From Clostridiales bacterium FE2011 (GTDB lineage: Bacteria; Bacillota; Clostridia; Christensenellales; Aristaeellaceae): a stretch of 64,000 bases of DNA. The stretch is taken from positions 2,790,001 to 2,854,000 of the forward strand of contig CP069418.1 of the NCBI GenBank assembly GCA_017569305.1, written 5' to 3'. Both the position numbers and the translations under genes were made by a program. This document shows, in pieces, positions 4,357 to 64,000 of the stretch (the stretch's first letter is position 1; every line of letters starts with the position of its first letter). The notes below the pieces were generated by a model, which saw only the letters and a program-made list of their open reading frames with translations, made no database searches and was not told the origin of the DNA.

Positions 4357-4390
4357 GTCCAGGCAGGAAGCAGCAGGAAGGAATGAAGGT

Positions 4391-25842: not shown

Positions 25843-25856
25843 CATCCCGGTGCAAA

Positions 25857-27941: not shown

Positions 27942-27962
27942 AGAAGGAAGGATCTGATCACC

Positions 27963-30287: not shown

Positions 30288-30300
30288 TCCAAAGATCCAG

Positions 30301-30331
30301 ACCGGGCGCTGTACACAGCGCCCGGTTTTTT
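30301..30331 (+). terminator. Terminator of the Cna-B/SBP operon
   Basis: ACCGGGCGCTG, TACA loop, CAGCGCCCGGT then TTTTT: an 11-bp GC-rich stem. Confidence 0.9.
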
Positions 30332-30348
30332 GACAGGAGAAATCAACC

Positions 30349-31176: not shown

Positions 31177-31226
31177 TGAAGATAAAGGCAGACAAATCAA
31201 TAAGCATGGAAAGCGAGGAAGAGAAC

Positions 31227-32120: not shown

Positions 32121-32159
32121 AACAGTACAAATAGATACAGAAAAAGTGCAGAACCTATT

Positions 32160-32205
32160 GAAGGAACAGGCGTTTCAAAAAATGTCTGTTCCTTCATTAA
32201 TTTTG
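32160..32205 (+). terminator. Terminator after the ROK kinase gene
   Basis: GAAGGAACAG pairs with CTGTTCCTTC (10 bp, 16-base loop) followed by ATTAATTTTG. Confidence 0.6.
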
Positions 32206-36520: not shown

Positions 36521-36585
36521 TTGAACTGATCAAACACACATAACAGGCAACCTGTGATTATACCTACCACGAGAGGAGTTTCGTT

Positions 36586-39500
36586 ATGAAACGGAATATT
36601 AAAAGGATAATCTCAATTCTGGCATCGGTATTGATGGTATTTAATTCAGTACCAATCAGTGCGTTCGCTGATGCGGAAATGACGTATCAGAACGGGTTGC
36701 CTGTATCCATTGCGGAAGGTGCACTTACGCCACAGCAGATTTTGGGGTCTGCGGTTGAGTATGGTGTGGTCGCGAACAAGTATAAGCAGCAAGGCCACAC
36801 CGAGACCAACTTTGCTGTCAAGCATTTCGAGCTCAACAACTCCCAGAGTATCGAAATCATGGGCAGCGGCAGCAACCCGATTCCCTTCTATATCGGGAAG
36901 CTGGATAACAACACCTATTTCTGGAACGGTGAAGCGACCAACGTTACGTTTGACGTGTACATCAACAAGAACCAGTCCAGCAAGGGACCAACCGACTCCA
37001 ATGCCAACGTACGGTATTCCAGACCGCAGCCTCCGACAAATGTTTATCCGAAGGAACAGGGCGAGATCAACACATATGTGGATACACTGCTGAACCATCC
37101 GGTGCGTATGTCGGAACTCATGGCGCAGAAAACCACCTATACACCTACATTCCCGAATAATTCAAAAACGATCGACCTGACCGGCCCCGCGTTCAGCCAG
37201 GCGAAAAACGCTACCATCTACGTTGACTGCTCCAACATGAAGAACATCATGTCGCAGGACGGCTGGGAGATCATTAAATATGAAGGTCAGACCATAGTCT
37301 TCAACATGCCTGATTCCGGGAACTATGACATCAAGAAGTTCAAGGTTACGGTCAAAGACGCAAACGGGGGAACTGTTGTCAGCGGCCTGGAGAGCCGGAC
37401 AATTGAAAAGGACGGAAACAAGGATCATAACGGTAAAGTAGAAAAGTACATCCTGAATCATATCGTATTCAATGCTTATAATGCCAGCAGCCTGTCCATC
37501 GATACTGCCGCGGGTATTTTCCTTGCGCCTAAAGCCACTGTGAATCAGAACAACGGTGCCGGTGCCGGCTGGGTTGTGACAAAGAAAGACTTCAATTCCA
37601 CCGCTGAATGGCACTACTATTTCAAGGCCAGACATTATCACGCAGACGCCGGAAAGAATGTAAATGTCTCCAAGACATTTACTTACCAGGACGGCAGTGA
37701 ACTGCCCGCCAACCTGAAGAACAAGGAATTCACCTTCAGGATGGATGAGGTAGACGAAAACACCTTCCAGATCAAGAACGGCAGCAGTGCCTATCACGCA
37801 ACCGTGATCGGCAAAGCCGGTGAAAACATTGAATTCCCCAAGTTTAATGTTTACAACACAGATTTCAGGTGCAAACCCAACGGCGAGATCGAAGGCGACC
37901 AGAGGATCAACAAGTATTATGTCATCCAGGAAGCCGCAAGCGACGATGATTCGATCGTCACCGACGCTAAGAAGATCTATGTGAAGCTTGAAGCACATGG
38001 ATATAATAAGGATCAGATCGACCTGAAGATCTCTTACTCTGAAGATCATCAGAACTGGATTGATCAAGCAACCGATGGTAACGTCGGCACCTTCAATAAC
38101 TACAAGAAACAGTATACCGACGTCGAAGTCGAGAAGAAGTGGCAGAAGGCTGCATACAACGGTGAACAGATCACCTATGTTGATTCTACCGGCGAGCATA
38201 CCGCTGACAGCGTTGAAGTGAAGCTGATTGCGGTCAAGTCCCTGCTGAAGCAGGGTCAGGGCCCGGTTGTGACGACGCAGCCCCAGGAAACATCCCAGGT
38301 CACGAGTCAACCGACTTCCCAGACGACTTCGACCACGAAGCCTACCGCTACACCTACACCCACACCCACGCCGAAGCCTACGCCCGTTCCTGTATATACT
38401 CTTCGTTTTGAAAGCTCTGACGATAGTTTGTCAGTCGAGTATAAATATAAGGGCGGTACAACTGTACAATTCTGGTTTGATAACGGTAATCAATGGTGGC
38501 ATCCGTATGAAGGAATAAGATTAACCGGTGATGTCAATGGAACCATTGGAAATAATGGTAACAAGTTTACTATCACCATGAATTCCAATAAAACCATTAA
38601 ATTGACACAGACCGGCAATAGCAACTGGGGCAATGTTGTTACTAATTCATTGCATTTATCACCTGCTGCAAACGGAAGCGCTTACACAACAGATGGTATA
38701 GAGGCGAAACAACTCAGAGCGTTTGATATTCGTTATCATATTGCTGCCAATGGCGTAAGTGACGTTAACTTCAAGTCTGCTTCAACCATCAGTTCTGTGC
38801 AGAATGGACTGAAGTCTGTTTCTGAGATTACTGGAGGAAAGGAATACACCGTTGTTGATACCCAGACGCTGAGTAAGGCCAACAACTGGAAGTATAAGTG
38901 GCAGAATCTGCCGAAACATTTCTATGACACAGACGGATCGATCTATACTCTTACCTATTATATAGTAGAAACTACCGCAACCGGCGCCGCCAGCAATTCC
39001 TACAGCGGAAACGGCACCGGCAAGGTAACGATTACCAATACGGAAGAAGAAACCTCCGTTACTGTTGCCAAGGAATGGGCTGACGCGGACAACCAGGATG
39101 GTATCCGTCCTGACAGCCTGACAGTCGACCTGATGAACGGTTCGACCAAGGTCGGTACCGTTACGCTGAACGCGTCGAATAACTGGTCTGCGACAATTGA
39201 TCATCTTGCGAAGTATGAGAATGGACAGCTGATCACCTATACCTGGAGTGAACAGAACCTGCCCGCTGGTTATTCGCTGACAAACACTGATGAGAATGGA
39301 ACAATAACCACCCTGAACAACAGCCATACACCGGAGAAGACCCAGGTTACGGTTACGAAGTCCTGGAATGACGCCAACAACCAGGATGGCTATCGTCCGT
39401 CCAGCGTTACGGTCAACCTGCTGGCTGACGGTACAAAGATTGGTTCCGTTGAGCTGAATGCAGGCAACAGCTGGACACATACCTGGACCGATCTGGACAA

Positions 39501-41442
39501 GTATGCCAACGGTACGGCTATTGACTATACGGTTACGGAAGACGCAGTAGCCAACTACACGACGGAGATTACAAAGGCTGCTGACGGAACCTTCACGTAC
39601 ACCGTCACAAATACCCATACAACCGAAAAGACGAAGGTCAAAGTGACCAAGGTTTGGGAAGACAGCGACAACAGGGACGGTTATCGTCCTGCCAGCGTGA
39701 CTGTCAACCTGCTGGCTGACGGTACAAAGACAACGTCCATCGAACTGAATGAGGAAAATCACTGGACATTTGAGTGGAACAGCCTGCCGAAGAAGGCCGG
39801 TGGTAAGGACATTGATTACACGGTCACCGAAGATGCAGTTACGAACTACACGACCGAAATCACCAAAGCAGCGGATGGAAGCTTCACATACAATGTGAAG
39901 AATACCCTGGAGACGACCACTGTCAGCGGCCATAAGACATGGAACCTGAGAGGCGCTGATGCCAGCTATATCCCTGCAAGCATTACAGTCTATATCAAGA
40001 ACGGTACACAGATTGTTGATACACTGAATGTAATCGCCGGGGAAAATAACAATTGGGAATACACGTCCAGAGAACTCCCGATGTATGAGGCTGACGGCAC
40101 AACACTGATCAATTACACCGTCGATGAACAGATTCCGGACGGATTCGAAAAACGTGTTGACGGCAATGACATCACAAACAATCTGAAGACAACTAAAATC
40201 AGGGGCGAGAAGGCCTGGGAGCTGAAGGGCAACAGCACAGAACTGCTACCTGAAAAGATCACAGTCTATATCAAGGACGGCGATAAAACTGTTGAAACCC
40301 TTGAGGTAAGGCCTGGCTCTGAAGGAAGATGGAGCTTCGCTTCCAAGGATCTGCCGAAGTATCGCGCTGACGGTAAGACACTGATCAACTATACCGTCGA
40401 TGAAGAACCTGTGCCCGGATTTGAGAAGGCTCTTAACGGGACGCAGATTACCAACACGCTGGAGACTGTGAAGATCACCGGCGAAAAGACCTGGGATATG
40501 CAGGGCTATGACGCAAGCCTCATGCCTGATCACATCACGGTGTACATCAAGAATGGTAACGACATTGTTGAGACGCTGACTGTCACGGCCGGCGAGGATA
40601 ACAAGTGGAAGTTCTCTTCCAGCGACCTGCCGAAGTACGAGAAGGGCACCAAGGACGAGATCACCTACACGGTGGATGAAAAGGTACCCGAAGGCTTCAG
40701 CAAGGTAGTAACCGGCAACAACATTACAAACACCTACATTCCTAAGACAACGACCGTAAGCGGCGAAAAGGTCTGGAACCTGAAGGGTAACAGCAACGAG
40801 CTGCTGCCCGAAGAGATTACGGTCTACATCAAGGATGGCGACAAGACCGTTGAAACCCTGAAGGTCAAGGCCGGCGAAGACGGTAAGTGGACATTCACTT
40901 CCGGCACTCTGCCGAAGTACCGGGCAGACGGTAAGACCGAGATCGTCTACACAGCTGACGAAGAAGCGATCCCGGGCTTCGAGAAGGTCACCGAGGGCAC
41001 CCGCATCACCAACACGCTGGAGACCGTGAAGATCACCGGCGAAAAGACCTGGGATATGCAGGGCTACGACGCAAGCCTCATGCCCGAGAGCATCACGGTC
41101 TACATCAAGAAGGGCAACGACACTGTTGAGACGCTGACTGTCACGGCCGGCGAGGATAACAAGTGGAAGTTCTCTTCCAGCGACCTGCCGAAGTACGAGA
41201 AGGGCACCAAGGACGAGATCACCTACACGGTGGATGAAAAGGTACCCGAAGGCTTCAGCAAGGTAGTAACCGGCAACAACATTACAAACACCTACATTCC
41301 TAAGACAACGACCGTAAGCGGCGAAAAGGTCTGGAACCTGAAGGGTAACAGCACTGAACTGCTGCCCGAAGAGATTACGGTCTACATCAAGGATGGCAGC
41401 AAGACCGTTGAAACTGACGGTGAAGGCCGGCACAGATGGTAA
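36586..41442 (+). CDS. Giant Cna-B repeat surface protein, reading-frame segment 1 (N-terminus)
   Basis: Start of a gene that continues to the window end. A signal peptide (MKRNIKRIISILASVLMVFN..., ending near AFA, residue 28) has a strong AGAGGAG site. Residues 30-505 form a non-repeated N-terminal region, possibly an adhesive domain. A Cna-B-like domain begins at about 510 (VEVEKKWQKA) but is interrupted by a T/P-rich linker and an AT-rich insert (about 38280-38760) before resuming. Cna-B domains then follow in tandem, opening with patterns such as VTKSWNDANNQDGYRP and VSGEKVWNLKG. At 41413 two bases are missing relative to sister repeat copies (GAAACTGACG against GAAACCCTGACG), so the frame shifts and meets a stop at 41440. 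The sequence continues in frame 41414-55420. Confidence 0.85.
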   Translation: MKRNIKRIISILASVLMVFNSVPISAFADAEMTYQNGLPVSIAEGALTPQQILGSAVEYGVVANKYKQQGHTETNFAVKHFELNNSQSIEIMGSGSNPIPFYIGKLDNNTYFWNGEATNVTFDVYINKNQSSKGPTDSNANVRYSRPQPPTNVYPKEQGEINTYVDTLLNHPVRMSELMAQKTTYTPTFPNNSKTIDLTGPAFSQAKNATIYVDCSNMKNIMSQDGWEIIKYEGQTIVFNMPDSGNYDIKKFKVTVKDANGGTVVSGLESRTIEKDGNKDHNGKVEKYILNHIVFNAYNASSLSIDTAAGIFLAPKATVNQNNGAGAGWVVTKKDFNSTAEWHYYFKARHYHADAGKNVNVSKTFTYQDGSELPANLKNKEFTFRMDEVDENTFQIKNGSSAYHATVIGKAGENIEFPKFNVYNTDFRCKPNGEIEGDQRINKYYVIQEAASDDDSIVTDAKKIYVKLEAHGYNKDQIDLKISYSEDHQNWIDQATDGNVGTFNNYKKQYTDVEVEKKWQKAAYNGEQITYVDSTGEHTADSVEVKLIAVKSLLKQGQGPVVTTQPQETSQVTSQPTSQTTSTTKPTATPTPTPTPKPTPVPVYTLRFESSDDSLSVEYKYKGGTTVQFWFDNGNQWWHPYEGIRLTGDVNGTIGNNGNKFTITMNSNKTIKLTQTGNSNWGNVVTNSLHLSPAANGSAYTTDGIEAKQLRAFDIRYHIAANGVSDVNFKSASTISSVQNGLKSVSEITGGKEYTVVDTQTLSKANNWKYKWQNLPKHFYDTDGSIYTLTYYIVETTATGAASNSYSGNGTGKVTITNTEEETSVTVAKEWADADNQDGIRPDSLTVDLMNGSTKVGTVTLNASNNWSATIDHLAKYENGQLITYTWSEQNLPAGYSLTNTDENGTITTLNNSHTPEKTQVTVTKSWNDANNQDGYRPSSVTVNLLADGTKIGSVELNAGNSWTHTWTDLDKYANGTAIDYTVTEDAVANYTTEITKAADGTFTYTVTNTHTTEKTKVKVTKVWEDSDNRDGYRPASVTVNLLADGTKTTSIELNEENHWTFEWNSLPKKAGGKDIDYTVTEDAVTNYTTEITKAADGSFTYNVKNTLETTTVSGHKTWNLRGADASYIPASITVYIKNGTQIVDTLNVIAGENNNWEYTSRELPMYEADGTTLINYTVDEQIPDGFEKRVDGNDITNNLKTTKIRGEKAWELKGNSTELLPEKITVYIKDGDKTVETLEVRPGSEGRWSFASKDLPKYRADGKTLINYTVDEEPVPGFEKALNGTQITNTLETVKITGEKTWDMQGYDASLMPDHITVYIKNGNDIVETLTVTAGEDNKWKFSSSDLPKYEKGTKDEITYTVDEKVPEGFSKVVTGNNITNTYIPKTTTVSGEKVWNLKGNSNELLPEEITVYIKDGDKTVETLKVKAGEDGKWTFTSGTLPKYRADGKTEIVYTADEEAIPGFEKVTEGTRITNTLETVKITGEKTWDMQGYDASLMPESITVYIKKGNDTVETLTVTAGEDNKWKFSSSDLPKYEKGTKDEITYTVDEKVPEGFSKVVTGNNITNTYIPKTTTVSGEKVWNLKGNSTELLPEEITVYIKDGSKTVETDGEGRHRW

Positions 41443-43528
41443 GTGGACATTCACTTCCGGCACTCTGCCGAAGTACCGGGCAGACGGTAAGACCGAGATC
41501 GTCTACACAGCTGACGAAGAAGCGATCCCGGGCTTCGAGAAGGTCACCGAGGGCACCCGCATCACCAACACGCTGGAGACCGTGAAGATCACCGGCGAAA
41601 AGACCTGGGATATGCAGGGCTACGACGCAAGCCTCATGCCCGAGAGCATCACGGTCTACATCAAGAAGGGCAACGACACTGTTGAGACGCTGACTGTCAC
41701 GGCCGGCGAGGATAACAAGTGGAAGTTCTCTTCCAGCGACCTGCCGAAGTACGAGAAGGGCACCAAGGACGAGATCACCTACACGGTGGATGAAAAGGTA
41801 CCCGAAGGCTTCAGCAAGGTAGTAACCGGCAACAACATTACAAACACCTACATTCCTAAGACAACGACCGTAAGCGGCGAAAAGGTCTGGAACCTGAAGG
41901 GTAACAGCACTGAACTGCTGCCCGAAGAGATTACGGTCTACATCAAGGATGGCAGCAAGACCGTTGAAACCCTGACGGTGAAGGCCGGCACAGATGGTAA
42001 GTGGACATTCACTTCCGGCACTCTGCCGAAGTACCGGGCAGACGGTAAGACCGAGATCGTCTACACAGCTGACGAAGAAGCGATCCCGGGCTTCGAGAAG
42101 GTTACCGAGGGCACCCGCATCACCAACACGCTGGAGACCGTGAAGATCACCGGCGAAAAGACCTGGGATATGCAGGGCTACGACGCAAGCCTCATGCCCG
42201 AGAGCATCACGGTCTACATCAAGAAGGGCAACGACACTGTTGAGACGCTGACTGTCACGGCCGGCGAGGATAACAAGTGGAAGTTCTCTTCCAGCGACCT
42301 GCCGAAGTACGAGAAGGGCACCAAGGACGAGATCACCTACACGGTGGATGAAAAGGTACCCGAAGGCTTCAGCAAGGTAGTAACCGGCAACAACATTACA
42401 AACACCTACATTCCTAAGACAACGACCGTAAGCGGCGAAAAGGTCTGGAACCTGAAGGGTAACAGCACTGAACTGCTGCCCGAAGAGATTACGGTCTACA
42501 TCAAGGATGGCAGCAAGACCGTTGAAACCCTGACGGTGAAGGCCGGCACAGATGGTAAGTGGACATTCACTTCCGGCACTCTGCCGAAGTACCGGGCAGA
42601 CGGTAAGACCGAGATCGTCTACACAGCTGACGAAGAAGCGATCCCGGGCTTCGAGAAGGTCACCGAGGGCACCCGCATCACCAACACGCTGGAGACCGTG
42701 AAGATCACCGGCGAAAAGACCTGGGATATGCAGGGCTACGACGCAAGCCTCATGCCCGAGAGCATCACGGTCTACATCAAGAAGGGCAACGACACTGTTG
42801 AGACGCTGACTGTCACGGCCGGCGAGGATAACAAGTGGAAGTTCTCTTCCAGCGACCTGCCGAAGTACGAGAAGGGCACCAAGGACGAGATCACCTACAC
42901 GGTGGATGAAAAGGTACCCGAAGGCTTCAGCAAGGTAGTAACCGGCAACAACATTACAAACACCTACATTCCTAAGACAACGACCGTAAGCGGCGAAAAG
43001 GTCTGGAACCTGAAGGGTAACAGCACTGAACTGCTGCCCGAAGAGATTACGGTCTACATCAAGGATGGCAGCAAGACCGTTGAAACCCTGACGGTGAAGG
43101 CCGGCACAGATGGTAAGTGGACATTCACTTCCGGCACTCTGCCGAAGTACCGGGCAGACGGTAAGACCGAGATCGTCTACACAGCTGACGAAGAAGCGAT
43201 CCCGGGCTTCGAGAAGGTCACCGAGGGCACCCGCATCACCAACACGCTGGAGACCGTGAAGATCACCGGCGAAAAGACCTGGGATATGCAGGGCTACGAC
43301 GCAAGCCTCATGCCCGAGAGCATCACGGTCTACATCAAGAAGGGCAACGACACTGTTGAGACGCTGACTGTCACGGTCGGCGAGGATAACAAGTGGAAGT
43401 TCTCTTCCAGCGACCTGCCGAAGTACGAGAAGGGCACCAAGGACGAGATCACCTACACGGTGGATGAAAAGGTACCCGAAGGCTTCAGCAAGGTAGTAAC
43501 CGGCAACAACATTACAAACACCTACATT
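40741..43528 (+). repeat. Array 1: five near-identical 558-bp units
   Basis: Unit boundaries (CCTAAGACAACG) fall at 40741, 41299, 41855, 42413 and 42971, with the next at 43529. Four units are exactly 558 bp and one is 556 bp. Each encodes two domains of about 93 residues. A single further half unit follows to about 43806. Confidence 0.93.
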
Positions 43529-46500
43529 CCTAAGACAACGACCGTAAGCGGCGAAAAGGTCTGGAACCTGAAGGGTAACAGCACTGAACTGCTGCCCGAA
43601 GAGATTACGGTCTACATCAAGGATGGCGACAAGACCGTCGACACCCTGACGGTGAAGGCCGGCACCGACGGCAAGTGGAGCTTCACCTCCAAGGATCTGG
43701 CGAAATACCGCGCAGACGGCAAGACAGCTATCAACTACACAGTTGAAGAAGAAGAAATTCCCGGTTTCGACAAAGTTATCAGCGGAACCCGTGTTACGAA
43801 TACGCTGAAGACGACAGACGTTTCTGTTGAGAAGATCTGGGATGACAATGACGACAAGAACCACAGCCGGCCTGAAAAGGTAATGGTCCAGCTGAAGGCA
43901 AACGGTAAGGATCTTGGAGATGCTGTTGAGCTGAATGCAAAGAATAGCTGGAAGTATACCTGGACGAACCTGGTCAAGCTTGATAACAATACTGAAATCC
44001 AGTATACGGTAACCGAAGCTCAGGTTCCCGGATATAAGGCTCCTGTCATCACCAAGGTGTCCGGTAACGAATGGGCTTACACCATTACGAACAGCATTAC
44101 CGAAGTGAAGGTCAACAAGGTTGACATTGCTGACGGTAAAGAGCTGGAAGGCGCACATATCCAGATTATCGACAAGGATGGCAAGGTCGTTGAAGAGTGG
44201 ACATCCACGAAGGATATCCATGAAGTATACGGTCTGCACACCGGCGAAACCTACACCCTGAAGGAGACCGTGGCGCCCCTGGGCTACACGATCGTTACGG
44301 AAACCACCTTCGTGATCGATGCAACCGGTAAGGTAACGACTACCGGCACTATGACCGAAGACGGAGTGATCCTGGTTGAAGATACGCTGACTGAAGTGAA
44401 GGTCAGCAAGGTGGATATTGCCAACGGCGCAGAGCTGGAAGGCGCGCATATCCAGATCATCGACAAGGACGGCAAGGTCGTTGAAGAGTGGAACTCCACG
44501 AAGGACGTCCATGAAGTGAAGGGCCTGCATACCGGCGAGACCTACACCCTGAAGGAGACCGTCGCGCCTCTGGGCTACACGATCGCTACAGACACCACCT
44601 TTGTGATCGACACAACCGGTAAGGTAACGACTACCGGCACTATGACCGAGGGCGGAGTCATCCTGGTCGAAGATACGATCACCAAGGTGAAGGTCAGCAA
44701 GATCGATATCACCAATGAAAAGGAACTGCCTGGTGCGACCATGCAGATCCTGGATGCGGAAGACAAGGTCATCAAGACCTGGGTTTCCGGCAACGAACCG
44801 TATTATGTGGAAGGTCTGCAGACCGGCGTAACATATAAGCTGGTTGAGACCATCGCTCCGGATGGATATACCATCGCAAGCGTGACGACCTTCAGCATTG
44901 ATACAAAGGGTAACGTCACAAGCAGCGGCACACACAGCAAGGACAAAGACGGCATCGAAGTGCTTGTTGTTGAAGACGACAAGACGCATATCTCCGTAAG
45001 CAAGCGCGACATCACCAAGGGTGATGAAGAACTGCCCGGCGCGACGCTGCAGATCCTGGACAAGGATGAAAACGTCGTGAAGGAATGGGTGTCCGGCGAC
45101 AAGCCCGAAGTCATCGAAGGCCTGAAGACGGGTGTGGAATACACACTGCGTGAGACGCTGGCTCCCGACGGATACCTGATTACAAGCGATACCACATTCA
45201 GCATTGACGAGAACGGCGATGTGACGAGCACCGGCACGACGAGCACAGACGACAAGGGCAGGCCCGTTCTGGTTGTGAACGACAAGCCCGTGCACGTGGA
45301 AGTTAAGAAGACCGATATCGCAAGCGGCAAGGAAGTCAAGGGTGCACACCTGGTTGTGACCGACGCTGAAGGCAAGACCGTTGACGAGTGGGTGTCCGAA
45401 GACAAGGGCAGTCACGTGATCAAGGGCCTGAAGACCGGCGTAGAATACACGCTGAGTGAGACCGTCGCACCTGACGGCTATCTCGTAACAACCGATATCA
45501 CCTTCACTGTGGCAACCGACGGCACAGTGACCACGACAGGGAAGAAGACCACCGACGCCAATGGCAACACGGTCATCCTGGTCGAGGATACAATCACGAA
45601 GGTGAAAGTCAGCAAGACCGACATCACCAACGGCGACGAAGAACTGCCTGGCGCAACCCTGAAGATTCTGGACGCTGAAGGCAATGAGGTTGAGACCTGG
45701 GTCTCCGGTACCGAACCGTACTATGTGGAAGGCCTGAAGACGGGCGTACAGTACAAGCTGGTTGAGACCATCGCTCCCGACGGCTATACCATCACCAGCG
45801 AGACCGTCTTCTCCATCGACGCTGAAACCGGCAAGGTAACCAGCACCGGCACAATCAGCAAGGACGATAAGGGTGTTGAGATCCTGGTCGTCAACGACAG
45901 CAAGACCCACATCTCTGTGAGCAAGCGCGACATCACCAAGGGTGATGAAGAACTGCCCGGCGCGACGCTGCAGATCCTGGACAAGGACGAAAACGTCGTG
46001 AAGGAATGGGTGTCCGGCGACAAGCCCGAAGTCATCGAAGGCCTGAAGACGGGCGTTGAATACACGCTGCGTGAGACGCTGGCTCCCGACGGATATACGA
46101 TTACCAGCGATACCACATTCAGCATTGACGAGAACGGCGATGTGACGAGCAGCGGCACGACCACAACGGACAAAGAAGGCAAGCCCGTCCTGGTAGTGAA
46201 CGACAAGCCCGTCCACGTAGAAGTTAAGAAGACCGACATCGCCAACGGCAAGGAAGTGGCCGGTGCACACCTGGTCGTGACCGACGCTGAGGGCAACAAG
46301 GTAGACGAGTGGGTGTCCGAAGATAACGGCAGCCACCTGATCAAGGGCCTGAAGACCGGCGTAGAATACACGCTGAGTGAGACCGTCGCACCTGACGGCT
46401 ATCTCGTAACAACCGATATCACCTTCACTGTGGCAACCGACGGCACAGTGACCACGACAGGGAAGAAGACCACCGACGCCAATGGCAACACGGTTATCCT

Positions 46501-49500
46501 GGTCGAGGATACGATCACCAAGGTGAAGGTCAGCAAGACCGACATCACCAACGGCGACGAAGAACTGCCTGGCGCAACCCTGAAGATTCTGGACGCTGAA
46601 GGCAATGAGGTTGAGACCTGGGTCTCCGGTACCGAACAGTACTATGTGGAAGGCCTGAAGACGGGCGTACAGTACAAGCTGGTTGAGACCATCGCTCCCG
46701 ACGGCTACACGATCACCAGTGAGACCGTCTTCTCCATCGACGCTGAAACCGGCAAGGTAACCAGCACCGGTACGGTCAGCAAGGACGATAAGGGTGTTGA
46801 GATCCTGGTCGTCAACGACAGCAAGACCCACATCTCTGTGAGCAAGCGCGACATCACCAAGGGTGATGAAGAACTGCCCGGCGCGACGCTGCAGATCCTG
46901 GACAAGGACGAAAACGTCGTGAAGGAATGGGTGTCCGGCGACAAGCCCGAAGTCATTGAAGGCCTGAAGACGGGCGTTGAATACACGCTGCGTGAGACGC
47001 TGGCTCCCGACGGATATACGATTACCAGCGATACTATCTTCAGCATTGACGAGAACGGCAATGTGACCAGCAGCGGCACGACCACAACGGACAAAGAAGG
47101 CAAGCCCGTCCTGGTAGTGAACGACAAGCCCGTCCACGTGGAAGTTAAGAAGACCGACATCGCCAACGGCAAGGAAGTTGCGGGAGCACACCTGGTTGTT
47201 AAGGATGCGGAAGAGAAGATCGTTGACGAGTGGGTGTCCGAGGACAACGGCAGCCACCTGATCAAGGGTCTGAAGACCGGCGTTGAATACACGCTGAGTG
47301 AGACCGTCGCACCTGACGGCTATCTCGTAACAACCGATATCACCTTCACTGTGGCAACCGACGGCACAGTGACCACGACAGGGAAGAAGACCACCGACGC
47401 CAATGGCAACACGGTTATCCTGGTCGAGGATACGATTACCAAGGTGAAGGTCAGCAAGACCGACATCACCAACGGTGACGAAGAACTGCCTGGCGCAACC
47501 CTGAAGATTCTGGACGCTGAAGGCAATGAGGTTGAGACCTGGGTCTCCGGTACCGAACCGTACTATGTGGAAGGCCTGAAGACGGGCGTACAGTACAAGC
47601 TGGTTGAGACCATCGCTCCCGACGGCTACACGATCACCAGTGAGACCGTCTTCTCCATCGACGCTGAAACCGGCAAGGTAACCAGCACCGGTACGGTCAG
47701 CAAGGACGATAAGGGTGTTGAGATCCTGGTCGTCAACGACAGCAAGACCCACATCTCTGTGAGCAAGCGCGACATCACCAAGGGTGATGAAGAACTGCCC
47801 GGCGCGACGCTGCAGATCCTGGACAAGGACGAAAACGTCGTGAAGGAATGGGTGTCCGGCGACAAGCCCGAAGTCATTGAAGGCCTGAAGACGGGCGTTG
47901 AATACACGCTGCGTGAGACGCTGGCTCCCGACGGATATACGATTACCAGCGATACTATCTTCAGCATTGACGAGAACGGCAATGTGACCAGCAGCGGCAC
48001 GACCACAACGGACAAAGAAGGCAAGCCCGTCCTGGTAGTGAACGACAAGCCCGTCCACGTGGAAGTTAAGAAGACCGACATCGCCAACGGCAAGGAAGTT
48101 GCGGGAGCACACCTGGTTGTTAAGGATGCGGAAGAGAAGATCGTTGACGAGTGGGTGTCCGAGGACAACGGCAGCCACCTGATCAAGGGTCTGAAGACCG
48201 GCGTTGAATACACGCTGAGTGAGACCGTCGCACCTGACGGCTATCTCGTAACAACCGATATCACCTTCACTGTGGCAACCGACGGCACAGTGACCACGAC
48301 AGGGAAGAAGACCACCGACGCCAATGGCAACACGGTTATCCTGGTCGAGGATACGATCACCAAGGTGAAGGTCAGCAAGACCGACATCACCAACGGTGAC
48401 GAAGAACTGCCTGGCGCAACCCTGAAGATTCTGGACGCTGAAGGCAATGAGGTTGAGACCTGGGTCTCCGGTACCGAACCGTACTATGTGGAAGGCCTGA
48501 AGACGGGCGTACAGTACAAGCTGGTTGAGACCATCGCTCCCGACGGCTACACCATCACCAGCGAGACCGTCTTCTCCATCGACGCTGAAACCGGCAAGGT
48601 AACCAGCACCGGTACGGTCAGCAAGGACGATAAGGGTGTTGAGATCCTGGTCGTCAACGACAGCAAGACCCACATCTCCGTAAGCAAGCGCGACATCACC
48701 AAGGGTGATGAAGAACTGCCCGGCGCGACGCTGCAGATCCTGGACAAGGACGAAAACGTCGTGAAGGAATGGGTGTCCGGCGAAAAGCCTGAAGTCATTG
48801 AAGGCCTGAAGACGGGCGTTGAATACACGCTGCGTGAGACGCTGGCTCCCGACGGATACCTGATTACAAGCGATACCACATTCAGCATTGACGAGAACGG
48901 CAATGTGACGAGCAGCGGCACGACCACAACGGACAAAGAAGGCAAGCCCGTTCTGGTAGTGAACGATAAGCCTGTCCATGTTGAAGTGAAGAAGACCGAC
49001 ATCGCCAACGGCAAGGAAGTTGCGGGAGCACACCTGGTTGTTAAGGATGCGGAAGAGAAGATCGTTGACGAGTGGGTGTCCGAGGACAACGGCAGCCACC
49101 TGATCAAGGGTCTGAAGACCGGCGTTGAATACACGCTGAGTGAGACCGTCGCACCTGACGGCTATCTCGTAACAACCGATATCACCTTCACTGTGGCAAC
49201 CGACGGCACAGTGACCACGACAGGGAAGAAGACCACCGACGCCAATGGCAACACGGTTATCCTGGTCGAGGATACGATCACCAAGGTGAAGGTCAGCAAG
49301 ACCGACATCACCAACGGTGACGAAGAACTGCCTGGCGCAACCCTGAAGATTCTGGACGCTGAAGGCAATGAGGTTGAGACCTGGGTCTCCGGTACCGAAC
49401 CGTACTATGTGGAAGGCCTGAAGACGGGCGTACAGTACAAGCTGGTTGAGACCATCGCTCCCGACGGCTACACCATCACCAGCGAGACCGTCTTCTCCAT

Positions 49501-55420: not shown

Positions 55421-58400
55421 CGGCGAGAGCATCGTTGACACGCTGACCGTAAAGGCCGGAGTGAACAAGGATTGGAGCTTCACGTCCAAGGTACTGCCGA
55501 AGTACCGCGCAGACGGCAAGACTGAAATCAACTATACAGTTGAAGAAGTTGCTGTGCCCGGCTTCGCAAAGGTCATCGAAGGCACCCGCATCACGAACAC
55601 GCTGGAGACCGTGAAGATCAACGGCGAGAAGAAGTGGGATATGAAGGGCTACAGCGAGGAGCTGATGCCCGAAAGCATCAAGGTTCTGATTAAGAACGGC
55701 GAAGCGACAGTTGACGAGCTGACCGTAACAGCGGGTGAGGACAAGAGCTGGAAGTTCGAGTCCAGAGACCTGCCGAAGTACGAAGCAGACGGCAAGACCG
55801 AGATCGAATACACCGTGGACGAAGAAGTCCCGGCCGGATTCGATAAGGTTGTGACCGGCACCACCATTACCAACACCTACAAGCCTGGTACAACGACCGT
55901 AAGCGGCCAGAAGGTCTGGAACCTGAAGGGTAACAACGAAGACCTGCTGCCGGAGAGCATCACGGTCTACATCAAGGACGGCGAGAGCATCGTTGACACG
56001 CTGACCGTAAAGGCCGGAGTGAGCAAGGATTGGAGCTTCACGTCCAAGGTACTGCCGAAGTACCGCGCAGACGGCAAGACTGAAATCAACTACACAGTTG
56101 AAGAAGTTGCTGTGCCCGGCTTCGCAAAGGTCATCGAAGGCACCCGTATCACGAACACGCTGGAGACCGTGAAGATCAACGGCGAGAAGAAGTGGGATAT
56201 GAAGGGCTACAGCGAAGAGCTGATGCCCGAAAGCATCAAGGTTCTGATCAAGAACGGCGAAGCGACAGTTGACGAGCTGACCGTAACAGCGGGTGAGGAC
56301 AAGAGCTGGAAGTTCGAGTCCAGAGACCTGCCGAAGTACGAAGCAGACGGCGAGACCGAGATCGAATACACCGTGGACGAAGAAGTCCCGGCCGGATTCG
56401 ATAAGGTTGTGACCGGCACCACCATTACCAACACCTACAAGCCTGGTATAACGACCGTAAGCGGCCAGAAGGTCTGGAACCTGAAGGGTAACAGCGAAGA
56501 CCTGCTGCCGGAGAGCATCACGGTCTACATCAAGGACGGCGAGAGCATCGTTGACACGCTGACCGTAAAGGCCGGAGTGAACAAGGATTGGAGCTTCACG
56601 TCCAAGGTACTGCCGAAGTACCGCGCAGACGGCAAGACTGAAATCAACTACACAGTTGAAGAAGTTGCTGTGCCCGGCTTCGCAAAGGTCATCGAAGGCA
56701 CCCGCATCACGAACACGCTGGAGACCGTGAAGATCAACGGCGAGAAGAAGTGGGATATGAAGGGCTACAGCGAAGAGCTGATGCCCGAGAGCATCAAGGT
56801 TCTGATTAAGAACGGCGAAGCGACAGTTGACGAGCTGACCGTAACAGCGGGTGAGGACAAGAGCTGGAAGTTCGAGTCCAGAGACCTGCCGAAGTACGAA
56901 GCAGACGGCAAGACCGAGATCGAATACACCGTGGACGAAGAAGTCCCGGCCGGATTCGATAAGGTTGTGACCGGCACCACCATTACCAACACCTACAAGC
57001 CTGGTACAACGACCGTAAGCGGCCAGAAGGTCTGGAACCTGAAGGGTAACAGCGAAGACCTGCTGCCGGAGAGCATCACGGTCTACATCAAGGACGGCGA
57101 GAGCATCGTTGACACGCTGACCGTAAAGGCCGGAGTGAACAAGGATTGGAGCTTCACGTCCAAGGTACTGCCGAAGTACCGCGCAGACGGCAAGACTGAA
57201 ATCAACTACACAGTTGAAGAAGTTGCTGTGCCCGGCTTCGCAAAGGTCATCGAAGGCACCCGTATCACGAACACGCTGGAGACCGTGAAGATCAACGGCG
57301 AGAAGAAGTGGGATATGAAGGGCTACAGCGAAGAGCTGATGCCCGAAAGCATCAAGGTTCTGATTAAGAACGGCGAAGCGACAGTTGACGAGCTGACCGT
57401 AACAGCGGGTGAGGACAAGAGCTGGAAGTTCGAGTCCAGAGACCTGCCGAAGTACGAAGCAGACGGCAAGACCGAGATCGAATACACCGTGGACGAAGAA
57501 GTCCCGGCCGGATTCGATAAGGTTGTGACCGGCACCACCATTACCAACACCTACAAGCCTGGTACAACGACCGTAAGCGGCCAGAAGGTCTGGAACCTGA
57601 AGGGTAACAGCGAAGACCTGCTGCCGGAGAGCATCACGGTCTACATCAAGGACGGCGAGAGCATCGTTGACACGCTGACCGTAAAGGCCGGAGTGAACAA
57701 GGATTGGAGCTTCACGTCCAAGGTACTGCCGAAGTACCGCGCAGACGGCAAGACTGAAATCAACTACACAGTTGAAGAAGTTGCTGTGCCCGGCTTCGCA
57801 AAGGTCATCGAAGGCACCCGCATCACGAACACGCTGGAGACCGTAAAGATCAACGGCGAGAAGAAGTGGGATATGAAGGGCTACAGCGAAGAGCTGATGC
57901 CCGAAAGCATCAAGGTTCTGATCAAGAACGGCGAAGCGACAGTTGACGAGCTGACCGTAACAGCGGGTGAGGACAAGAGCTGGAAGTTCGAGTCCAGAGA
58001 CCTGCCGAAGTACGAAGCAGACGGCGAGACCGAGATCGAATACACCGTGGACGAAGAAGTCCCGGCCGGATTCGATAAGGTTGTGACCGGCACCACCATT
58101 ACCAACACCTACAAGCCTGGTACAACGACCGTAAGCGGCCAGAAGGTCTGGAACCTGAAGGGTAACAGCGAAGACCTGCTGCCGGAGAGCATCACGGTCT
58201 ACATCAAGGACGGCGAGAGCATCGTTGACACGCTGACCGTAAAGGCCGGAGTGAACAAGGATTGGAGCTTCACGTCCAAGGTACTGCCGAAGTACCGCGC
58301 AGACGGCAAGACTGAAATCAACTACACAGTTGAAGAAGTTGCTGTGCCCGGCTTCGCGAAGGTCATCGAAGGCACCCGCATCACGAACACGCTGGAGACC

Positions 58401-60898
58401 GTAAAGATCAACGGCGAGAAGAAGTGGGATATGAAGGGCTACAGCGAAGAGCTGATGCCCGAAAGCATCAAGGTTCTGATTAAGAACGGCGAAGCGACAG
58501 TTGACGAGCTGACCGTAACAGCGGGTGAGGACAAGAGCTGGAAGTTCGAGTCCAGAGACCTGCCGAAGTACGAAGCAGACGGCAAGACCGAGATCGAATA
58601 CACCGTGGACGAAGAAGTCCCGGCCGGATTCGATAAGGTTGTGACCGGCACCACCATTACCAATACCTACAAGCCTGGTACAACGACCGTAAGCGGCCAG
58701 AAGGTCTGGAACCTGAAGGGTAACAGCGAAGACCTGCTGCCGGAGAGCATCACGGTCTACATCAAGGACGGCGAGAGCATCGTTGACACGCTGACCGTAA
58801 AGGCCGGAGTGAACAAGGATTGGAGCTTCACGTCCAAGGTACTGCCGAAGTACCGCGCAGACGGCAAGACTGAAATCAACTACACAGTTGAAGAAGTTGC
58901 TGTGCCCGGCTTCGCAAAGGTCATCGAAGGCACCCGCATCACGAACACGCTGGAGACCGTAAAGATCAACGGCGAGAAGAAGTGGGATATGAAGGGCTAC
59001 AGCGAAGAGCTGATGCCCGAAAGCATCAAGGTTCTGATTAAGAACGGCGAAGCGACAGTTGACGAGCTGACCGTAACAGCGGGTGAGGACAAGAGCTGGA
59101 AGTTCGAGTCCAGAGACCTGCCGAAGTACGAAGCAGACGGCAAGACCGAGATCGAATACACCGTGGACGAAGAAGTCCCGGCCGGATTCGATAAGGTTGT
59201 GACCGGCACCACCATTACCAACACCTACAAGCCTGGTACAACGACCGTAAGCGGCCAGAAGGTCTGGAACCTGAAGGGTAACAACGAAGACCTGCTGCCG
59301 GAGAGCATCACGGTCTACATCAAGGACGGCGAGAGCATCGTTGACACGCTGACCGTAAAGGCCGGAGTGAACAAGGATTGGAGCTTCACGTCCAAGGTAC
59401 TGCCGAAGTACCGCGCAGACGGCAACTGAAATCAACTACACAGTTGAAGAAGTTGCTGTGCCCGGCTTCGCAAAGGTCATCGAAGGCACCCGTATCACGA
59501 ACACGCTGGAGACCGTGAAGATCAACGGCGAGAAGAAGTGGGATATGAAGGGCTACAGCGAAGAGCTGATGCCCGAAAGCATCAAGGTTCTGATCAAGAA
59601 CGGCGAAGCGACAGTTGACGAGCTGACCGTAACAGCGGGTGAGGACAAGAGCTGGAAGTTCGAGTCCAGAGACCTGCCGAAGTACGAAGCAGACGGCGAG
59701 ACCGAGATCGAATACACCGTGGACGAAGAAGTCCCGGCCGGATTCGATAAGGTTGTGACCGGCACCACCATTACCAACACCTACAAGCCTGGTATAACGA
59801 CCGTAAGCGGCCAGAAGGTCTGGAACCTGAAGGGTAACAGCGAAGACCTGCTGCCGGAGAGCATCACGGTCTACATCAAGGACGGCGAGAGCATCGTTGA
59901 CACGCTGACCGTAAAGGCCGGAGTGAACAAGGATTGGAGCTTCACGTCCAAGGTACTGCCGAAGTACCGCGCAGACGGCAAGACTGAAATCAACTACACA
60001 GTTGAAGAAGTTGCTGTGCCCGGCTTCGCAAAGGTCATCGAAGGCACCCGCATCACGAACACGCTGGAGACCGTGAAGATCAACGGCGAGAAGAAGTGGG
60101 ATATGAAGGGCTACAGCGAAGAGCTGATGCCCGAGAGCATCAAGGTTCTGATTAAGAACGGCGAAGCGACAGTTGACGAGCTGACCGTAACAGCGGGTGA
60201 GGACAAGAGCTGGAAGTTCGAGTCCAGAGACCTGCCGAAGTACGAAGCAGACGGCAAGACCGAGATCGAATACACCGTGGACGAAGAAGTCCCGGCCGGA
60301 TTCGATAAGGTTGTGACCGGCACCACCATTACCAATACCTACAAGCCTGGTACAACGACCGTAAGCGGCCAGAAGGTCTGGAACCTGAAGGGTAACAGCG
60401 AAGACCTGCTGCCGGAGAGCATCACGGTCTACATCAAGGACGGCGAGAGCATCGTTGACACGCTGACCGTAAAGGCCGGAGTGAACAAGGATTGGAGCTT
60501 CACGTCCAAGGTACTGCAGAAGTACCGCGCAGACGGCAAGACTGAAATCAACTACACAGTTGAAGAAGTTGCTGTGCCCGGCTTCGCAAAGGTCATCGAA
60601 GGCACCCGCATCACGAACACGCTGGAGACTGTGAAGATCGAAGGCGAGAAGAAGTGGGATATGAAGGGCTACAGCGAAGAGCTGATGCCCGAGAGCATCA
60701 AGGTTCTGATTAAGAACGGCGAAGCGACAGTTGACGAGCTGACCGTAACAGCGGGTGAGGACAAGAGCTGGAAGTTCGAGTCCAGAGACCTGCCGAAGTA
60801 CGAAGCAGACGGCAAGACCGAGATCGAATACACCGTGGACGAAGAAGTCCCGGCCGGATTCGATAAGGTTGTGACCGGCACCACCATTACCAACACCC
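54491..60898 (+). repeat. Array 3: eleven and a half 558-bp units
   Basis: GAGACCGTGAAGATC-type boundaries fall at 54491, 55049, 55605, 56163, 56721, 57279, 57837, 58395, 58953, 59509, 60067 and 60625. Two intervals are 556 bp (starting 55049 and 58953), all others 558 bp. The last unit has only its first domain. Confidence 0.93.
55419..59429 (+). CDS. Giant Cna-B repeat surface protein, reading-frame segment 3
   Basis: Continuation inside array 3: about seven 558-bp units, each encoding a pair of domains beginning VSGQKVWNLKGNSEDLL and INGEKKWDMKGYSEELM. The first possible start codon in this frame is GTG at 55461, but homology begins at 55419, so no independent start is implied. It ends at TGA 59427, where GGCAACTGAA replaces GGCAAGACTGAA of the other copies, again a 2-base loss. 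Confidence 0.82.
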   Translation, partial: DGESIVDTLTVKAGVNKDWSFTSKVLPKYRADGKTEINYTVEEVAVPGFAKVIEGTRITNTLETVKINGEKKWDMKGYSEELMPESIKVLIKNGEATVDELTVTAGEDKSWKFESRDLPKYEADGKTEIEYTVDEEVPAGFDKVVTGTTITNTYKPGTTTVSGQKVWNLKGNNEDLLPESITVYIKDGESIVDTLTVKAGVSKDWSFTSKVLPKYRADGKTEINYTVEEVAVPGFAKVIEGTRITNTLETVKINGEKKWDMKGYSEELMPESIKVLIKNGEATVDELTVTAGEDKSWKFESRDLPKYEADGETEIEYTVDEEVPAGFDKVVTGTTITNTYKPGITTVSGQKVWNLKGNSEDLLPESITVYIKDGESIVDTLTVKAGVNKDWSFTSKVLPKYRADGKTEINYTVEEVAVPGFAKVIEGTRITNTLETVKINGEKKWDMKGYSEELMPESIKVLIKNGEATVDELTVTAGEDKSWKFESRDLPKYEADGKTEIEYTVDEEVPAGFDKVVTGTTITNTYKPGTTTVSGQKVWNLKGNSEDLLPESITVYIKDGESIVDTLTVKAGVNKDWSFTSKVLPKYRADGKTEINYTVEEVAVPGFAKVIEGTRITNTLETVKINGEKKWDMKGYSEELMPESIKVLIKNGEATVDELTVTAGEDKSWKFESRDLPKYEADGKTEIEYTVDEEVPAGFDKVVTGTTITNTYKPGTTTVSGQKVWNLKGNSEDLLPESITVYIKDGESIVDTLTVKAGVNKDWSFTSKVLPKYRADGKTEINYTVEEVAVPGFAKVIEGTRITNTLETVKINGEKKWDMKGYSEELMPESIKVLIKNGEATVDELTVTAGEDKSWKFESRDLPKYEADGETEIEYTVDEEVPAGFDKVVTGTTITNTYKPGTTTVSGQKVWNLKGNSEDLLPESITVYIKDGESIVDTLTVKAGVNKDWSFTSKVLPKYRADGKTEINYTVEEVAVPGFAKVIEGTRITNTLETVKINGEKKWDMKGYSEELMPESIKVLIKNGEATVDELTVTAGEDKSWKFESRDLPKYEADGKTEIEYTVDEEVPAGFDKVVTGTTITNTYKPGTTTVSGQKVWNLKGNSEDLLPESITVYIKDGESIVDTLTVKAGVNKDWSFTSKVLPKYRADGKTEINYTVEEVAVPGFAKVIEGTRITNTLETVKINGEKKWDMKGYSEELMPESIKVLIKNGEATVDELTVTAGEDKSWKFESRDLPKYEADGKTEIEYTVDEEVPAGFDKVVTGTTITNTYKPGTTTVSGQKVWNLKGNNEDLLPESITVYIKDGESIVDTLTVKAGVNKDWSFTSKVLPKYRADGN

Positions 60899-63800
60899 TG
60901 GCAACGGTAGAAGTGAAGGTAACGAAGGTCTGGAACGACAACAACAACGTTGAAGGTTTCCGTCCGGAAAGTGTTACTATCAATCTGAAGAAAGATTCTG
61001 AAACGATCGATACGGTCGAGTTGAACGAAAGCAACAACTGGACCTACACATGGCAGAATCTGCTGAAGTATGAAGCTGGACAGGAGATCAATTATACGGT
61101 CTCCGAAGATCCGGTTGCCAACTACAGCACAAAGATCACGAAGGCTGCGGACGGTACCTTCACCTATACGGTGACAAACAGCCGTACCTACGAAGAGACC
61201 GAAGCGACCGTGAAGAAGGTCTGGGCAGACAATGAAAACAACGACGGCAAGCGGCTTGTTGAGCTGAAAGTCACGCTGAGTAACGGCGATGAAGTGACGC
61301 TGAACGCAGCGAACAACTGGACAGCAACCATCAACAACCTGCCGAAGTACGCAAACGGTGTTGAAATTGAATACACCTGGACTGAAAACGAAGAAGGCCT
61401 GCCGGAAGGCTACACGCTGACCAGCAGCAACAAGGTCGGTACGGTTACAACGCTGACAAACAGCTACACAGATGAGAAGACCGAAGCGACCATCGTGAAG
61501 GTCTGGGATGACAATGAAAACAACGACGGCAAGCGGCCGACCGCACTGAAGGCTGTACTGAGCAACGGCACGGTAGTGACGCTGAACGACGCAAACGGCT
61601 GGAAGGTGACAGTTAAGGGCCTGCCGAAGTACGCGAACGGTGTTGAAATTGAATACACCTGGACCGAAGATGAAACCGGACTGCCGGAAGGCTACACGCT
61701 GATCAGCACCGACAAGAAGGGCACGATCACGACGCTGACGAACAGCTACGAAGATGAGCTGACTGAAGCGACCATCGTGAAGGTCTGGGATGACAATGAA
61801 AACAACGATGGCAAGCGGCCTGAAGAACTGAAGGTCACGCTGAGCAACGGTATGGATGTCACACTGAGCGAAGCGAACAGCTGGACCGCGACGATTGACA
61901 ACCTGCCGAAGTACGAGAACGGCGTTGAAATTGAATACACCTGGACTGAAGATGCAGCTGGTCTGCCGGAAGGCTACACGCTGACCAGCACCGATAAGAA
62001 TGGCACGATCACGACGCTGACGAACAGCTATGAGGATGAGCTGACCGAAGCGACAGTGAAGAAGGTCTGGGCAGACAATGGAAACAACGACCGTAAGCGG
62101 CCTGTTGAGCTGAAAGTCACGCTGAGCAACGGTGATGAAGTGACGCTGAACGAAGCAAACGGCTGGACTGCGACCATTGACAACCTGCCGAAGTACAAAG
62201 ACGGTGATGAAATTGAATACACCTGGACTGAAGACGCAGCCGGTCTGCCGGAAGGCTACACGCTGACCAGCAGCAATAAGGTCGGTACAGTCACAACGCT
62301 GACGAACAGCTACACGGACGAAAAGACCGAAGCGACCGTGAAGAAGGTCTGGAACGACGCCAATAACCAGGATGGCAAGCGTCCGACTGAACTGAAGGTC
62401 ACGCTGAGCAACGGTACAGATGTCACGCTGAACGCAGCGAACGGCTGGACAGCAACCATTGACAACCTGCCGAAGTATAAAGACGGTGTTGAAATTGAAT
62501 ACACCTGGACTGAAGACGAAACCGGTCTGCCGGAAGGCTACACATTGACCAGCGCTGAAAAGGTCGGCACGATTACGACCCTGACGAACAGCCGCGACAC
62601 TGAAAAGACCCAGGTAAGCGTTGAGAAGATCTGGAGCGACAGTGGCAACAGGGAAGGCTTCCGTCCGGAGACCGTGACCGTGAAGCTGCTGGCGAACGGT
62701 ACAGAAATCAAGACAACTGAACTGAGCGAGAGCAACGAGTGGAAGTACACCTGGACCGGCCTGCCGAAGTACGAAGGCGGCAAGGAAATCACTTACACGG
62801 TTGCTGAAGACCAGCTCGAGAACTACAAGGTTCCTGTGATCGAGAAGGTGTCTGAGACCGCATGGGCTTACACTGTAACGAACAGCCGTGACTACGAGGA
62901 AACCGAAGTCAAGGTTACCAAGGTCTGGGACGACAATAACAATGCTGAAGGTTTCCGTCCCGCAAGCGTCACTGTCAACCTGATGAAGGGAACCGAGAAG
63001 ATCGGCGAAAGCATCACGCTGGACAAGGACAACAACTGGAGCTACAGCTGGACCGAACTGCAGAAGTTCGAAAACGGCGCGGCGATCGAATACACGGTCA
63101 CCGAAGATCCGGTCGCGAACTACAGCACGCAGATCACCAAGGCGGCTGACGGCATCTTCACCTACACGGTGACGAACAGCCGTACGACCGAGAAGACCGA
63201 GGTCAGCGTTGAGAAGATCTGGAACGACAGCAACAATAGGGAAGGCTTCCGTCCGGATGAAGTGACAGTGAAGCTGCTGGCGAACGGCAAGGAAGCCGGC
63301 ACAATCACGCTGAACAAGGACAACAGCTGGAAGCATACCTGGACCAACCTGCAGAAGTTCGAAGGCGGCAAGGAGATCGAATATACGGTTTCTGAAGACC
63401 AGCTGGCGAACTACAAGAAGCCTGTGATCGCGAAGGTATCTGAGACCGCATGGGCTTATACCGTAACGAACAGCCGTGACTACGAAGAAACCGAAGTCAA
63501 GGTCCTGAAGGTCTGGGACGACAGCGATAACAAGGAAGGCTTCCGTCCGGAAAGCGTCACTGTCAACCTGATGAAGGGAACCGAACAGATCGGTGACAGC
63601 ATCACGCTGAATGAGGACAACGAATGGACTTACACCTGGACTGAACTGCAGAAGTACGAAGGCGGCCAGGCGATCAACTACACGGTCACCGAGAATCCAG
63701 TCGCGAAGTACAGCACACTGATTACCAAGGCTGATGACGACACCTTCACCTACACAGTGAAGAACAGCCGTACAGTTGAAAAGACCAAGGTCAGCGTTGA

Positions 63801-64000
63801 GAAGATCTGGGAAGACAGCGAGAACGTTGAAGGCTTCCGTCCGGAGAGCGTGACAGTGAAGCTGCTGGCAAACGGCAAGGAAGCCGGCACAGCGACACTG
63901 GACAAGGCCAACGAATGGAAGTACACCTGGACAGACCTGCAGAAGTTCGAAGGCAGCAAGGAGATCGAGTACACGGTTTCCGAAGACCAGCTGAAGAACT
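59425..64000 (+). CDS. Giant Cna-B repeat surface protein, reading-frame segment 4 (open at window end)
   Basis: The frame is open from 59425 to the last base. It holds the last copies of array 3 (to about 60898) and then eleven more divergent Cna-B domains, opening with VTKVWNDNNNVEGFRP, VKKVWADNENNDGK, VKVWDDNENNDGK, VEKIWSDSGNREGFRP and similar patterns; the last is cut by the window end in SEDQLKN. Because each of the three upstream deletions removes two bases, this segment is back in the same frame as segment 1. The C-terminus, and therefore any sortase signal or anchor, lies outside the window. Confidence 0.83.

Follow-up and report, generated by a model that had tools for sequence, protein, structure and literature searches.

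A giant Cna-B/SpaA stalk gene in a Clostridiales genome and a C-terminal tail paired with an SBP_bac_5-family gene

The 64,000-base stretch considered here (the window) runs from position 2,790,001 to 2,854,000 of contig CP069418.1 (C1:2790001-2854000) of Clostridiales bacterium FE2011, a one-contig genome of 3,562,493 bases that is referred to as G000 where relatives are compared. From 36586 to the last base of the window, at 64000, the plus strand carries one continuous series of Cna-B and SpaA domains, which belongs to a giant gene for a secreted stalk protein of approximately 1.28 MDa. The protein ends in a proline-rich linker and a 21-residue tail, in place of an LPXTG motif and membrane helix, and the same kind of tail stands at the very C-terminus of other surface proteins, several of which may share a genome where, as a rule, just one of the tail genes lies beside a gene for a secreted protein of the SBP_bac_5 family. 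The overall reading, to which we give about an even chance, is that the locus is one gene, that the breaks in its reading frame are assembly errors and that the tail is a tag working in trans with an SBP_bac_5-fold partner that captures and retains the stalks.

The domain series occupies some 9,138 codons of the window, in agreement with the figure of about 9,100 given in an earlier note on this DNA, and the gene ends outside the window, as that note had held, with a stop at C1:2861409 (window-equivalent 71409). From start to stop it measures 34,824 bases or 11,608 codons, and the masses of its four pieces add up to 1.277 MDa, so that the protein is indeed a giant, though larger than the near-1-MDa molecule that had been proposed. 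By a profile made for the purpose, pieces 1 to 4 contain 10, 48, 15 and 36 domain fragments, or about 107 domains (76 Cna-B and 31 SpaA-like) once two split domains are merged. Within the window the count is 86 (10 + 48 + 15 + 15 fragments, minus the two split domains that are counted twice), close to the 85 or so Ig-fold domains first estimated; three of the 86 are interrupted by frame breaks and one further domain is cut by the window end. Pfam recognises Cna_B (PF05738) in piece 1, in piece 3 and in as much of piece 4 as the window holds, with values between 5.1e-143 and 8.6e-291; piece 2 has 18 stretches of Cna_B and 29 of SpaA (PF17802), and beyond the window there are two FctA (Spy0128-like) stretches and one RrgB-like domain. 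Many weak Pfam matches (e.g. Cupredoxin, PH_8) were judged likely to be repeat artefacts and were ignored. A loose Lys-Trp/Glu/Asn pattern recurs in all four pieces, and the tandem arrangement of Cna_B and SpaA domains is that of a repeat stalk protein. The N-terminus has a hydrophobic stretch (KD19 2.01), and the unique region that follows it gave no Pfam match at 0.01. A single 34.8-kb gene for a secreted Cna-B/SpaA stalk is well supported because the domain matches and the ratio of non-synonymous to synonymous substitution (dN/dS) both speak for it, frame openness alone being weak evidence. The minus strand over the repeat arrays is also open, between 41387 and 55531 and for up to 4714 codons, and can mislead gene callers.

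The claim of a single giant stalk gene thus stands as regards the one domain series, but not as one open reading frame (ORF), since it takes four open frames to cover the domains (Table 1). At each of the three breaks the sequence is one or two bases longer or shorter than near-identical sister copies, and the syntenic giants of two relatives, G163 and G132, have three breaks each of the same one- or two-base kind. All nine breaks in the three genomes have a sister copy at least 97% identical, a property of only 47%, 46% and 34% of windows along the G000, G163 and G132 giants respectively. For the part of the giant downstream of all breaks, comparison with G163 over 1185 codons gives a dN/dS of 0.195 and comparison with G132 over 1189 codons one of 0.245, and for the N-terminal region it is 0.107 against G132; these values indicate that the C-terminal part beyond the breaks is under purifying selection. 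Within the family, the giant of G198 is open without interruption for 12,457 codons, measured from stop to stop, and carries this type of tail, and in G119 a frame is still open after at least 10,303 codons where the contig ends. A further giant of G000 is divided by one break into frames of 3532 and 1008 codons, and its counterpart in G163 is unbroken at 4538 codons. Frame-breaking indels in long-read assemblies have been reported in the parts of the literature drawn on here, and assembly errors in near-identical repeats are the most likely source of all three breaks, as far as comparison of the copies can tell. The competing possibility, that the breaks exist in the chromosome and that this strain has a decaying pseudogene or a set of separate shorter genes here, appears distinctly improbable. 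It draws on the presence of four frames in a single-contig genome and on the recurrence of breaks in the G163 and G132 giants. The dN/dS values between repeat copies inside the gene are weaker evidence of selection (median 0.40 for 318 SpaA pairs, near saturation, and 0.48 for 257 pairs of Cna-B copies of piece 4). A decaying locus is at odds with the low dN/dS downstream of the breaks, with the location of the breaks in near-identical copies and with the unbroken giants of relatives, and separate genes are unlikely because pieces 2 to 4 begin inside domains and have no signal peptide. Programmed ribosomal frameshifting that joins the four frames is hardly conceivable: all three G000 breaks do shift the frame in the same direction, but their place within the repeat unit varies, sizes and signs differ in G163 and G132, and the sister copies remain in frame, so that it was rejected.

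The giant's C-terminus reads ...PPTEGKKPKTTGETVTFEEYKTPLGVESIINHVGDCFD and the protein stops in EEYKTPLGVESIINHVGDCFD. Neither an LPXTG motif nor a C-terminal membrane helix was found in the giant, the KD19 maximum at its end being 0.08, and sortase anchoring of the protein was rejected on these two grounds. A check on the C-terminal signal had been proposed along with the giant gene; the stop and the end of the protein were found, but instead of an ordinary signal they reveal a family-specific tail. The 641-residue protein encoded upstream in the window and a second giant of the genome (3920 residues, C1:725073) end like the giant, and variants are seen in a 313-residue protein that ends IQIHVGVCFE and in the 1008-codon frame, which ends INVGETIE. 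In four tail proteins of G000 the KD19 maximum of the last 45 residues is 0.08-0.83, in contrast to 2.2-2.6 in three of the LPXTG-type proteins that the genome also encodes, together with three sortases. In none of 96 distinct tail ORFs does the KD19 maximum of the final 45 residues rise above 1.6, and all of them lack an LPXTG-like motif within their final 60 residues. Pfam and NCBIfam gave no match over the tail of the 641-residue protein, the 313-residue protein or the giant. Domains of the LysM, SLH, CWB2 and GW kinds bind bacterial walls, and no such wall-binding domain was listed by Pfam for the C-terminal part of the giant, the second giant or the 641-residue protein. The open-access literature searched held no mention of the tail's sequence letters, nothing on this tail under non-sortase anchoring or binding proteins, as judged by titles and the start of abstracts, and nothing on the locus itself under a genus name, giant genes or Cna-B giants.

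A scan of genome contigs for DNA encoding INHVGDC[FY][DE] produced 87 stretches with 90 exact matches, and in 88 of these the very next codon is a stop. The two others include one from Acidithrix that looks like chance; the 79 other titles listed are of Clostridia, Clostridiales, Firmicutes, Oscillospiraceae, Christensenellaceae or Christensenella, many with a ruminant gut as the site. The tail-bearing family presumably belongs to the order Christensenellales. A profile of 30 tails matched 61 of 200 genomes of the family (31 of the 103 of good quality), and in a sample of the class the same profile matched one genome in 391, G000 itself, at least one of the 390 others being from the same family. 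A sample of the order, searched with a single tail as query, contained tails solely in this family (8 of 396 genomes). As far as sequence allows a judgement, the tail is a C-terminal tag common to several surface proteins of this bacterial family.

In the window the partner gene lies directly downstream of the gene for the 641-residue tail protein. Of the 83 tails that are followed by 600 or more bases of sequence, 52 had a partner within 300 bases downstream and three more belonged to the first of two tandem tail genes. Grouping by assembly, which took in 80 of the 87 stretches, gave 28 assemblies with a single tail, where the partner was adjacent in 25, the end of the stretch intervened in two and no partner was present in one, and 22 assemblies with several tails, of which 19 had exactly one adjacent pair, one had two and two had none. 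The pairing is many-to-one, with the partner adjacent in genomes that have a single target. The partner is present at 1e-40 in 94 of the 200 family genomes, and in 31 of 35 stretches upstream of partners picked where no tail was listed there was a diverged tail end, e.g. IDDYDTPLGIGNVHLNAGECFE or INVGETIE. A wider, partly overlapping set was assembled from 199 matches by leaving out ORFs longer than 1100 residues, those that were truncated or had no stop, and those whose last 400 residues were identical; a tail end, by a loose pattern, was found upstream of 110 of its 119 distinct partner ORFs, 20 of these tails being read from a separate stretch. Among the remaining nine, four sit where the fetched stretch runs out, and in two of these (L087 and L148) the exact tail is seen; another of the nine ends LNMGDGFE. 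The seven SBP_bac_5 genes of G000 provide a control, in that a tail gene is upstream of all three members of the partner subfamily and of none of the four others; a permease-like gene was recognised by eye downstream of three of those four, and none, again by eye, within about 1.5 kb of the three subfamily members.

The AlphaFold2 (AF2) model of the partner, built from 37 sequences, has a pLDDT of 76.5 and a pTM of 0.78. The first Foldseek match is AppA with a nonapeptide (1xoc; TM 0.73 by target and 0.49 by query length) and the second is lactococcal OppA with a peptide (3drf; TM 0.69 by target), so that the partner is predicted to have the oligopeptide-binding, SBP_bac_5 fold. In NCBIfam it falls below the cut-off of every oligopeptide-binding family listed, and of the two features of Opp/Dpp transport that were looked for, a permease was seen by eye beside none of the three G000 members and a lipobox is absent from most partners. 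The protein is strongly conserved (dN/dS 0.011 against G163). In a first set of pairs a cysteine of the partner, Cys427 in stop-to-stop numbering, was present in 60 of 63 pairs whose tail has cysteine and in none of six whose tail lacks it. Many partners end in a stretch rich in Asp and Glu that often contains Phe (GDFETFE, EEFEEFDD), and the last 18 residues of the AF2 model have a pLDDT below 50.

A scheme in which these elements act together can be proposed. The stalk would consist of a signal peptide, an N-terminal region that is probably the tip, some 107 isopeptide-type domains, the proline-rich linker and the tail; the tail would act in trans with the dedicated secreted protein of SBP_bac_5 fold, whose peptide cleft may capture it after export of the stalk, and the complex would keep the C-terminus of the stalk at the cell surface, and a single partner would serve several stalks. 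The giant gene, the tail, its C-terminal position and the many-to-one pairing are shown by the sequences, and the fold by prediction; that the partner binds the tail directly, that the stalks are retained at the surface and that the N-terminal region functions as a tip is what we infer. In its general form, namely sortase-free retention in which a transporter-free binding protein clamps a shared tail and holds megadalton stalks whose interior is exchanged wholesale whilst tail and partner stay fixed, the proposal is tentative and somewhat short of an even chance. A number of observations weigh against the scheme. No partner is seen in the fetched stretch for 28 of the 83 tails with downstream room, and the two multi-tail assemblies with exact-pattern tails and no adjacent partner count against a strict neighbour requirement; in the relative G026 nothing matches the window partner better than 7.1e-57. 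Most partners have neither a lipobox nor a visible wall anchor, a lipobox-like strict pattern occurring in just one of 48 and a looser one in 12 of 110, including the second partner of G000 (L065), and lipoprotein anchoring of the partner as a rule is unsupported by these counts. In the larger set the partner cysteine accompanies 82 of 95 tails with cysteine and also six of 15 tails that lack it, and a disulfide between the tail cysteine and Cys427 was rejected as a strict rule.

Two other explanations take the tail in a different sense. It may direct processing or sorting by an enzyme still to be found, either a protease or a transpeptidase, with the neighbouring SBP_bac_5-fold protein as a chaperone or presenter and not an anchor. 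This is rather unlikely; comparable C-terminal signals are read by membrane proteases in the GlyGly-CTERM/rhombosortase and MYXO-CTERM/myxosortase systems, in the portions of the reports drawn on here (PMC3237569, PMC11980579), and one tail gene of G000 adjoins a signal peptidase and a sortase, but the tail stands at the very end and has no membrane helix, and it is the SBP_bac_5-family gene that recurs as the immediate neighbour, in a comparison that surveyed no other neighbours and included no genome-wide co-occurrence screen. OppA-type proteins bind peptide pheromones in other Gram-positive bacteria, and the tail could likewise be cut off and released as a peptide signal bound by an OppA-like protein. 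The nearness of the partner fold to peptide-bound AppA and OppA and the shortness and conservation of the tail would suit such a role, which is nevertheless improbable: the three subfamily genes of G000 have no visible permease nearby, as opposed to three of the four other SBP_bac_5 genes, partners that mostly lack a lipobox would not be cell-bound receptors, and the same tail is carried by several stalks of one genome.

The proposed system of tail and partner resembles the GlyGly-CTERM type in the way it would work, by analogy, and is not a member of it. In the part of the description used (PMC3237569), GlyGly-CTERM is a short C-terminal homology region on several proteins per genome with many-to-one pairing, and the partner gene is beside the target in most single-target genomes and otherwise far apart; it comprises a motif, a membrane helix and a basic cluster and its partner is an intramembrane protease, whereas the present tail lacks the helix and has an acidic end, and its partner has the fold of a secreted peptide-binding protein and is not a membrane protease. 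MYXO-CTERM, to the extent covered by the text consulted (PMC11980579), likewise has a highly conserved cysteine in a signature on surface proteins, together with a membrane helix, an Arg-rich end and a CPBP protease; in the present tail the cysteine is third from the end and is not invariant (variants GETIE, GDTFD and GEAIE). The tripartite end of motif, membrane helix and basic cluster that characterises the GlyGly-CTERM, MYXO-CTERM and PEP-CTERM signals is absent from the tail. Stalk and pilus proteins of the LPXTG/sortase type have the same Cna-B and SpaA domains, and such proteins and three sortase genes occur in G000, but the giant and the other tail proteins tested lack an LPXTG-like end. 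Amongst other very large proteins, staphylococcal Embp is also of about 1 MDa and differs in having helical-bundle repeats, as stated in the section of the source used (PMC7587433). Giant1-5 of Apilactobacillus, according to the excerpted account (PMC12863079), are secreted repeat proteins of 3,000-8,000 residues with a conserved C-terminal part; they consist of beta-solenoids and other repeats, and an SH3b-like C-terminal domain is proposed to attach them, in contrast to the 21-residue tail and separate partner gene found here. OppA and AppA (1xoc, 3drf) share the fold of the partner by Foldseek and the Pfam family SBP_bac_5, with about 15% identity; the partner is longer and mostly lacks a lipobox, its members in G000 have no visible permease beside them and its gene is paired with tail proteins.

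The locus has a variable interior. G163 is about 92% identical to G000 at 25001-34518 and at window-equivalent 67836-72216, and between those two flanks no megablast match (1e-50) was obtained. The N-terminal regions of the two giants are 27% identical over 141 residues; that of G000 (540 residues) is 81% identical over 542 residues to that of G132, whose upstream flank has 79% DNA identity. It seems, from these alignments, that a block of about 33 kb, which starts inside the companion gene and reaches almost to the end of the giant, has been exchanged between lineages and that the C-terminal end has stayed, because G163 differs inside flanks of about 92% identity while the more distant G132 matches in the N-terminal region. 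That the interior differs over 33 kb whereas the ends are conserved suggests that what the stalk displays is under strong diversifying pressure. Each of the three giants of G000 has immediately upstream a gene whose short C-terminal region (45-88 residues) is shared among the three at 23-38% identity. Both further giant tail genes of the genome, in the C1:1214310-1227850 region (the 3532- and 1008-codon frames with one break) and at C1:725070-736832 (3920 residues, unbroken), are preceded by a Glu/Pro-rich companion that resembles the one in the window. Two giants of 6119 and 3548 codons at G026:C20 87140-116477 both end in an exact INHVGDCFD tail, and neither has a partner next to it. The region C1:3156098-3163685 (L065:6099-13686) brings together a signal peptidase, a sortase, the 313-residue tail protein, an SBP_bac_5-family partner whose N-terminus is lipobox-like and an LPSTG pilin, so that the tail system here has a sortase pilus cluster as its neighbour. 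Elsewhere in the window ARAGORN placed a tRNA-SeC at 4667-4757 on the minus strand, within the span of the 4340-6088 ORF.

Table 1. Coordinates of features in and around the giant gene (window numbering; positions above 64000 are window-equivalent)
Feature	Position	Strand	Basis
Second tail protein, 641 aa, 3 Cna_B stretches, ends EEYDTPLGVEVIINHVGDCFD	26016..27941	+	
Tail of the 641-aa protein, then TAA	27876..27938	+	
Partner, secreted SBP_bac_5-family protein, 774 aa, no lipobox	27963..30287	+	Pfam 2.9e-31
Companion gene, 1246 aa, Pro/Thr/Glu-rich, signal-peptide-like start	32780..36520	+	
Block differing between close relatives	34519..64000, on to 67835	+	G163 comparison
Piece 1, frame 1: signal peptide, unique N-terminal region, first Cna-B array; 1618 codons	36586..41442	+	Pfam Cna_B 5.1e-143
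Unique N-terminal region, 525 aa, candidate tip	36676..38250	+	
Frame break 1, in frame overlap, inside near-identical repeat copy	41393..41442	+	
Piece 2, frame 2: 4675 codons, starts inside a domain, no signal peptide	41393..55420	+	
Array of 29 SpaA (prealbumin-like) domains	44099..52975	+	Profile domain positions, Pfam
Frame break 2 (approximate), inside near-identical repeat copy	55401..55460	+	
Piece 3: 1322 codons, Cna-B array	55461..59429	+	
Frame break 3 (approximate), inside near-identical repeat copy	59401..59457	+	
Piece 4, cut by the window end	59458..64000, on to 71409 (C1:2861409)	+	

Giant repeat surface proteins are already known and size alone is not new, though 11,600 to 12,400 codons is extreme. 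What is new is the C-terminal tag with its partner of SBP_bac_5 fold, which is possibly a new kind of surface retention. In the sortase, exosortase, rhombosortase and myxosortase systems the signal depends on a helix in the membrane and on an enzyme located there, and this tail has no helix. If the partner does bind the tail, a fold familiar from the uptake of nutrients would have been put to use in anchoring proteins, the tail would be a short, testable peptide tag, and the display of the largest proteins in a family with many ruminant-gut records would be explained.

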